DNA of 48,553 bases from Streptosporangiales bacterium. Its GTDB lineage: Bacteria; Actinomycetota; Actinomycetes; Streptosporangiales; WHST01. A program made the translations under genes and the position numbers. How positions within the stretch are numbered: the first letter of the stretch is position 1; each line of letters begins with the position of its first letter. Below are positions 46,305 to 47,382 of this stretch, in pieces. The notes under the pieces were generated by a model, which worked only from the letters and a program-made list of their open reading frames with translations, was not told where the DNA came from and ran no database searches. The stretch lies in NCBI GenBank assembly GCA_009379955.1, contig WHST01000036.1, forward strand, positions 1 to 48,553, given 5' to 3'.

Positions 46305-47276
46305 TCAGCCGACGTCGAGGACGCAGCGGAAGCCCTGGTTGCCCGACGACGAGTCCGGCGTGTTCTTCGTCCGCGCCGCGAGCCGGTAGCGGTTGCAGTA
46401 GGAGTCGTGGCAGAGGTAGGAGCCGCCGCGCATCACGCGCTCCTCGCCGGTGTCGGGTCCCCGCGGGTCGGGGATGGGGCTGTCGGCGTCGGAGGGGTGG
46501 TCGGTGCCGAAGCGGTCGGAACACCATTCCCAGACGTTGCCGCAGACGTTGGAGAGGCCGAAGTCGTTGGGGTGGAAGGCCGTGACCGGCGCCGTGCCGC
46601 GAAAGCCGTCCTCGACGGTGTTGGTGACGGGGAAGGTGCCCTGGAAGATGTTGCACAGCCACCGGTTCGTCGGTCGCAGCTCGTCGCCCCACGGGTAGCG
46701 GGTGCGCTCGCGGCCGCCGCGGGCGGCGTACTCCCACTCGGCCTCGGTGGGCAGTCGCTTGCCCGCCCACTCGGCGTACGCGGTGGCGTCGTGCCACGAG
46801 ACGTGGACGACGGGGTGCTGGTCGCGACCGTCGAGCGTGCTGTGCGGGCCCTCGGGCGTGCGCCAGGTGGCGCCGTCGGCGGCGCGCCACCAGGGCGCCT
46901 CGGCCGGGTAGCGGAGGTCCGCGGCCTGTAGCTCGCGGGGCAGCAGTCCGCCGAACACGAACGACCAGCCGAACCGCTCGGCCTCGGTCACGTATCCGGT
47001 GGCGCGGACGAACGCCGCGAACTGCCGCGTCGTCACCGCGCAGGTGTCGATCCGGAACGGGCGCAGCGTGACCTGGCGCACCGGGCCCTCACCGTCGTGC
47101 GGGTTCGCGTCGGGATCGTCGCCACCCATCGCGAAGGTGCCTCCGGGCAGCAGCACCGTGCCCGCCTCAGGACGCGGCCTGCGCCCCTTGACGGACCGCG
47201 TCGCAGAAGCGGTCGAGGCAGGCGGTGACGACGTTGCGGTCGTGGACCGACTGGGTGCGCAGCAGCCTTCGCTCAC
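46305..47276 (-). CDS. Formylglycine-generating enzyme (SUMF1 family) with N-terminal CxPxR
   Basis: 323 residues. The C-terminal catalytic fold is a full FGE: EAGTVLLPGGTFAMGGDDPD at the start, VTTRQFAAFVRATGYVTEAE, VHVSWHDATAYAEWAGKRLP, GNVWEWCSDRFG, and the active pair in RGGSYLCHDSYCNRYRLAAR (Cys289 and Cys294, the copper-binding cysteines of true FGEs), ending NTPDSSSGNQGFRCV. FGE oxidises the Cys of a CxPxR motif in sulfatases to formylglycine. Its own first residues are MSEGCCAPSRST, which contains C-A-P-S-R, the substrate motif. No sulfatase gene lies in the window. The GTG at 47276 has GGAG just upstream. It is cotranscribed with AlkD. Confidence 0.93.
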   Translation of the reverse strand: MSEGCCAPSRSTTATSSPPASTASATRSVKGRRPRPEAGTVLLPGGTFAMGGDDPDANPHDGEGPVRQVTLRPFRIDTCAVTTRQFAAFVRATGYVTEAERFGWSFVFGGLLPRELQAADLRYPAEAPWWRAADGATWRTPEGPHSTLDGRDQHPVVHVSWHDATAYAEWAGKRLPTEAEWEYAARGGRERTRYPWGDELRPTNRWLCNIFQGTFPVTNTVEDGFRGTAPVTAFHPNDFGLSNVCGNVWEWCSDRFGTDHPSDADSPIPDPRGPDTGEERVMRGGSYLCHDSYCNRYRLAARTKNTPDSSSGNQGFRCVLDVG

Positions 47277-47382
47277 GTGCTCCACCCTCTCAGACCGGGA
47301 CCGTCGTCGTGCGGATGACCTGAGGGCCGTGCCGGGCCCGTCGATACGCTTGCGGCACTGCCGTCGCCTGTGGAGGTCGTCC

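Follow-up and report, generated by a model that had tools for sequence, protein, structure and literature searches.

Formylglycine-generating enzyme (FGE), which underlies multiple sulfatase deficiency and is also used to label proteins, acts on the sulfatase motif C-x-P-x-R, the cysteine of which it turns into formylglycine. To our knowledge, there is no settled account of how FGE obtains its copper in cells. According to one report, the enzyme holds Cu(I) linearly by two thiolates, to which the substrate cysteine adds a third, and the structure 6s07 is that of the T. curvata FGE (PMC12123546). The S. coelicolor FGE purified from E. coli was described as needing copper pre-treatment for high turnover (PMC4505483). 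In human FGE, an N-terminal extension (residues 33–72) carries Cys50 and Cys52, and sulfatase activation is lost when these are changed to alanine; the review that describes this places a cysteine-bearing N-terminal extension only in higher eukaryotes (PMC7279497). By itself, the human core is reported to be active in vitro, where the extension is not required (PMC4505483).

The FGE gene and its N-terminal tail

The window (the whole stretch of 48,553 nucleotides that was analysed) contains an FGE gene at 46,305–47,276 on the reverse strand, which encodes 323 residues from a GTG start preceded at 3 nt by GGAG, a possible ribosome-binding site (47,280–47,283, reverse strand). The FGE-sulfatase domain PF03781 spans residues 38–319 (E = 2.2e-84; 283.5 bits, cut-off 23.3), and the closest solved structure is T. 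curvata 6s07 (core E = 6.9e-121), with S. coelicolor 6muj at E = 6.4e-114. The copper-binding pair Cys289 and Cys294 (CX4C), which lies in LCHDSYC (residues 288–294; 46,395–46,415, reverse strand), showed no variation in the FGE alignment and was aligned with the sites of 6s07 and 6muj. Judging from this domain and these matches, the protein is an aerobic FGE of the SUMF1 type, predicted to convert cysteine to formylglycine; no NCBIfam model scored above its cut-off for it.

The N-terminal tail (residues 1–38; 47,163–47,276, reverse strand) lies outside the Pfam domain. The first-pass annotation had claimed that the enzyme begins MSEGCCAPSR with an exact C-x-P-x-R, and the same residues, (M)SEGCCAPSR, are read from the 5′ end of the gene, GTG AGC GAA GGC TGC TGC GCA CCC AGT CGG (residues 1–10; 47,276–47,247). 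The motif CCAPSR occupies residues 5–10 (47,247–47,264, reverse strand) and includes the FGE-substrate core CAPSR (Cys6–Arg10; 47,261–47,247, reverse strand). Since PF03781 starts at residue 38, the motif is outside the catalytic domain, and the cysteine pair precedes the enzyme core, as in an N-terminal extension of the SUMF1 type. The sulfatase signature is given as C-[STACG]-P-[STA]-R-x(2)-[LIVMFW] (PMC7279497). The window tail, which reads CAPSRSTT, does not match this full signature at the hydrophobic position after R-x(2).

A cysteine pair conserved in one clade of FGEs

We gathered 410 loci by a genome-contig scan with the full-length query and by genome searches in which only the core served as query, which kept the tail from biasing the choice of loci in these searches; loci were thus selected for similarity to the window FGE core (to the whole protein in the contig scan). 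After 11 of the 410 rows were dropped as duplicate cores, leaving 399, and another 31 for lacking both copper cysteines or scoring under 150 bits, 368 relatives remained. One clade of the midpoint-rooted tree, hereafter the CC clade, holds 208 of these, the window copy (L089) not counted. Its support was 0.63, rising to 0.873 when the human and S. coelicolor sequences were added, and the human FGE core nests inside it (0.873).

A vicinal CC is present in the N-terminal tail of 200 of the 208 clade members. In 194 of them the pair lies at most 75 residues before the core (shuffle mean 16.6); in six more, which emerged after the inspected stretch was widened from 75 to 230 residues, it lies 78–143 residues upstream, and some of these are from Chloroflexota with repeat-like linker insertions. 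The eight members without CC include L241, which begins at a contig end, and L046, described below. According to the record titles, the clade members were drawn around genomes of Actinomycetota, Bacillota, Pseudomonadota, Verrucomicrobiota, Chloroflexota, and Acidobacteriota. The survey of N-termini proposed by the first-pass annotation was thus positive; besides the pair itself, the exact CCxPxR is found in 95 of the 208 relatives (window left out). Conservation across several phyla makes a role for the segment very likely.

Two variations were seen beside this pattern. The Microbacterium FGE L046 reads C-T-C-G-C-T-A-P in place of CC, with a C-x-C spacing like that of human Cys50 and Cys52. 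In L223, L224, L225, and L227, repeat-like segments such as PAPSPLVGEGWGEGKSGAA interrupt the linker from CC to the core, as though an intergenic repeat had invaded the coding tail.

A substrate-like core in the tail

The consensus of the tail in the CC clade is C-C-[ATGS]-P-[SAG]-R. In the 195 tails counted (window included), which had already been selected for CC, the residue after the pair is one of A, T, G, and S in 92%, proline comes next in 170 (87%), the position after that is S, A, or G in 73%, and arginine is in register in 118 (61%) and absent there in 39%. The strictness of conservation therefore falls from the cysteine pair to the proline and then to the arginine. No comparable preferred positions were found in the linker from CC to the core (median distance 31 residues). 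The cysteine codons are mixed (TGC TGC 119, TGC TGT 38, TGT TGC 19, and TGT TGT 19), indicating that the amino acids are what is conserved.

Of the 195 tails, 96 contain the exact CC.P.R, compared with a mean of 3.5 and a maximum of 11 when the residues after CC were shuffled (2000 rounds), although the relatives are not independent and the shuffles overstate the significance. A separate, exported clade comprises 61 FGEs, mostly with signal-like N-termini as judged by eye. Eleven of their tails contain C-x(1,6)-P-x-R-[FY], for example CCGVLPSRF and CHSGVPSRF (shuffle mean 0.08), and in nine of the 11 the residue after the cysteine is C or H, both of which are Cu(I) ligands. Three other exported tails read ECHE-[TI]-P, and most of the 61 have neither form. 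Chance was considered as the origin of the motif and rejected by the shuffles in both clades (96 versus 3.5 and 11 versus 0.08). The likeness to the substrate core, to which the first-pass annotation had drawn attention, is genuine: it greatly exceeds chance and extends to the two x positions, where small residues prevail.

This likeness invites two readings in which the tail behaves simply as a substrate or as a mimic of one. It might act as a pseudosubstrate lid only, its C-x-P-x-R lying in the groove and its cysteine capping Cu(I) for as long as no sulfatase takes its place, which would prevent idle oxygen chemistry and would have no part in copper delivery. Both the match to the substrate core, small residues included, and the report that the substrate cysteine binds Cu(I) directly (PMC12123546) agree with a lid; the extra cysteine, kept better than the proline or the arginine, is left unexplained, and the exported tails alter the spacing from cysteine to P-x-R, so that we regard this reading as unlikely. 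In the second, Cys6 would itself be converted to formylglycine, in cis or in trans, leaving an aldehyde on the enzyme with a regulatory role or as a by-product. The exact CAPSR of the window FGE and the CCxPxR of 95 of 208 relatives would suit such self-modification, but arginine is missing in 39% and proline in 13% of the tails, the exported tails are not C-x-P-x-R, and the cysteine in front has no place in it. Because the cysteine pair is kept better than the substrate-defining arginine, self-modification, possible in principle, appears improbable and less likely than the handling of copper by the tail that is proposed below.

The cysteine pair might alternatively be a redox device that reduces a Cys289–Cys294 disulfide for Cu(I) binding or senses oxidants. 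Apo-FGE was reported to form this disulfide, which must be reduced before copper binds (PMC12123546), and the tail pair is a dithiol; however, histidine replaces the second cysteine in some exported tails, and the proline and arginine would be unexplained. We consider this quite unlikely.

Start codons and the solved structures

A misplaced start codon, which the first-pass annotation had named as a way in which the segment could fall outside the protein, was rejected as a general cause. In the window gene, an upstream GTG at 47,285, three codons earlier, would merely extend the tail, and the stretch from CC to the core is free of start codons. The following GTG, codon 41, lies in the first core strand with GAGG 8 nt upstream, and a short form of the enzyme may arise from it. 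Two other genomes of the family start alike, with three residues between the start and CC (L093, MADSCCTPGR; L094, VSESCCAPGR). Across 194 loci (one of the 195 was skipped, having no start within 30 codons), the start immediately before CC is preceded by a Shine-Dalgarno-like match of at least 4 bases in 107, and the stretch from CC to the core lacks any start codon in 87. The first start after CC has such a match in 29 of 107, about the level of internal core codons (26.7%).

The placing of starts also bears on the model enzymes. The product of locus L105 matches the T. curvata 6s07 chain over 302 residues and is identical to it save for the first residue. The chain begins at an internal GTG, and the L105 frame extends 24 codons further to a TTG, through an extension that contains ERPACCAPSL. 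The TTG, the preceding GTGGAG, and CC are retained in three relatives, and we infer that the upstream TTG start is in use for the T. curvata FGE. The solved structure thus lacks the tail, in the case of T. curvata at least. The nearest intact relatives of the S. coelicolor FGE in the survey have the tail, and its sister L015 reads MSHDHRPCCAPSG before the part that matches the solved chain. Full-length FGEs might need less copper treatment.

Sulfatases and neighbouring genes

The statement of the first-pass annotation that no sulfatase is in the window was borne out by PF00884. Nine sulfatase matches lie on other contigs of the source genome, and the C-x-P-x-R signature is present in four of the eight loci examined; FGE substrates therefore exist in this genome. 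Two sulfatases of this genome (L003 and L006) read LCCPSR, with a cysteine at the first x of C-x-P-x-R. Among the contig-scan loci, 9 of the 32 from the CC clade and 8 of the 27 from elsewhere contain a sulfatase signature, and these similar proportions mean that sulfatase linkage does not separate the clades.

A DNA alkylation repair gene (PF08713; 45,603–46,292, reverse strand) begins 12 nt downstream of the FGE stop codon in an operon-like arrangement. Such a neighbour was found in no other surveyed locus, though many loci span only about 1.3 kb, a limit that applies equally to the citrate-lyase-like neighbour, which recurs in L093 (80% identity) and L095 (33%). A second FGE copy in a genome of the same genus (L417 and L419; G002 contig 37) matches from core residue 44 and has one TGA.

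Proposed function of the tail

The reading that we favour, with a probability of roughly 0.4, is that the flexible tail docks via P-x-R and places two thiols at the Cu(I) site, thereby loading or guarding the copper. In this proposal, based on conservation in the tails, (i) the tail would be a built-in arm of FGE; (ii) its P-x-R part would dock as a sulfatase peptide does, in the substrate groove of the same enzyme or of an adjacent FGE; (iii) docking would bring the cysteine pair to the buried CX4C site of Cys289 and Cys294; and (iv) the pair would take up Cu(I) and hand it over, or cap it as a third thiolate, to be displaced by an incoming sulfatase. The C-x(n)-P-x-R-[FY] segment of exported FGEs and the human extension with Cys50 and Cys52 could serve as equivalent arms. 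Besides the conservation of the tail, points in favour are the thiolate chemistry of the copper site, the reported need for human Cys50 and Cys52 in an enzyme whose core nests in the CC clade, the terminal cysteine pair of mercuric reductase (see below), and the copper pre-treatment required by the S. coelicolor FGE, whose nearest intact relatives have the tail. We favour an arm with two functions because a plain substrate needs no cysteine in front and should keep its arginine as well as its cysteine; a plain metal-binding tail is disfavoured because proline and arginine in the sulfatase register are not needed for metal alone. Of the options raised in the first-pass annotation, copper or thiol chemistry combined with substrate-like docking thus fits better, and plain self-modification, given the 39% of tails without the arginine, fits less well.

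Several observations count against such an arm. The tail has low confidence in both AlphaFold2 models: the mean pLDDT of the first three ten-residue blocks is 65, 60, and 55 in the window FGE, the N-terminal blocks of the L024 FGE are at 58, 74, 65, and 70, and docking of the tail in the groove could not be read from either model. The activity of the tail-less human core in vitro was recorded with copper supplied (PMC4505483), the copper pre-treatment of the S. coelicolor FGE may be a simple result of growth in E. coli, and eight of the 208 CC-clade sequences lack the pair. In addition, among the 98 FGEs outside the CC and exported clades, which have the same copper site, none has CC or C.P.R in its tail; an arm is therefore not essential to every FGE. 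In separate FGE clades the tails are very short or absent and have no cysteine pair, and such enzymes might load copper differently.

A further alternative, to which we give little credence, is that the tail stays outside the active site and binds a partner such as a copper chaperone, a sulfatase, or a retention factor (ERp44 in animals). ERp44, an animal ER factor, cannot explain a bacterial tail, and on this view the tail would resemble the substrate core by accident. In human FGE, Cys50 and Cys52 are indeed reported to bind ERp44 (PMC7279497, PMC4505483).

The copper-handling arm can also be put more broadly, as an ancient substrate-mimicking device, shared by bacteria and animals, in which the cysteine pair and P-x-R dock in the groove and Cu(I) is handed to the buried site. 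We hold this wider version to be rather doubtful. If true, it would explain why human Cys50 and Cys52 are needed in cells and the extension is dispensable in vitro, and the arm would have been overlooked since bacterial model enzymes were cloned from starts placed too late.

Comparison with known systems

In the open-access literature searched, no title or abstract dealt with a cysteine tail in bacterial FGEs, and no text was found that mentions CCAPSR together with formylglycine. Through the survey, a remark on a single protein becomes a feature of the FGE family of which these searches gave no description. The tail shares C-A-P-S-R with the sulfatase signature and differs from it in the cysteine at −1, the missing hydrophobic residue after R-x(2), and the lack of a sulfatase fold. 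The T. curvata (6s07) and S. coelicolor (6muj) enzymes share a closely similar core and the CX4C copper pair with the window FGE, whose substrate specificity is presumed to be that of aerobic copper-dependent FGEs; unlike the window FGE, the 6s07 chain lacks its tail, the CCAPSL found in the L105 DNA. The conserved tail, which combines a thiol pair with a resemblance to the substrate and is missing from the T. curvata chain that was crystallised, offers a direct test of how FGE obtains its copper.

In mercuric reductase (MerA), a flexible terminal cysteine pair is reported to pass Hg(II) to the buried CXXXXC of the opposing monomer (PMC4500099). Like FGE, it combines a flexible terminal pair with a soft-metal site formed by a buried CXXXXC; MerA is an unrelated protein with a C-terminal pair and Hg(II) as its metal, and the comparison is one of analogy only.

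The human extension resembles the bacterial tail in having a cysteine pair before a core that lies inside the CC clade, and its Cys52 is followed by G-T-P-Q-R. By contrast, the human pair is C-x-C rather than C-C and belongs to an ER protein in which it is tied to ERp44 retention. In their position and cysteine content, the bacterial tails speak against the restriction of such extensions to higher eukaryotes. Common descent of the bacterial tail and the human extension is plausible, on the grounds of position and tree rather than of an alignable linker, and the bacterial tail offers a model for the human N-terminal extension.
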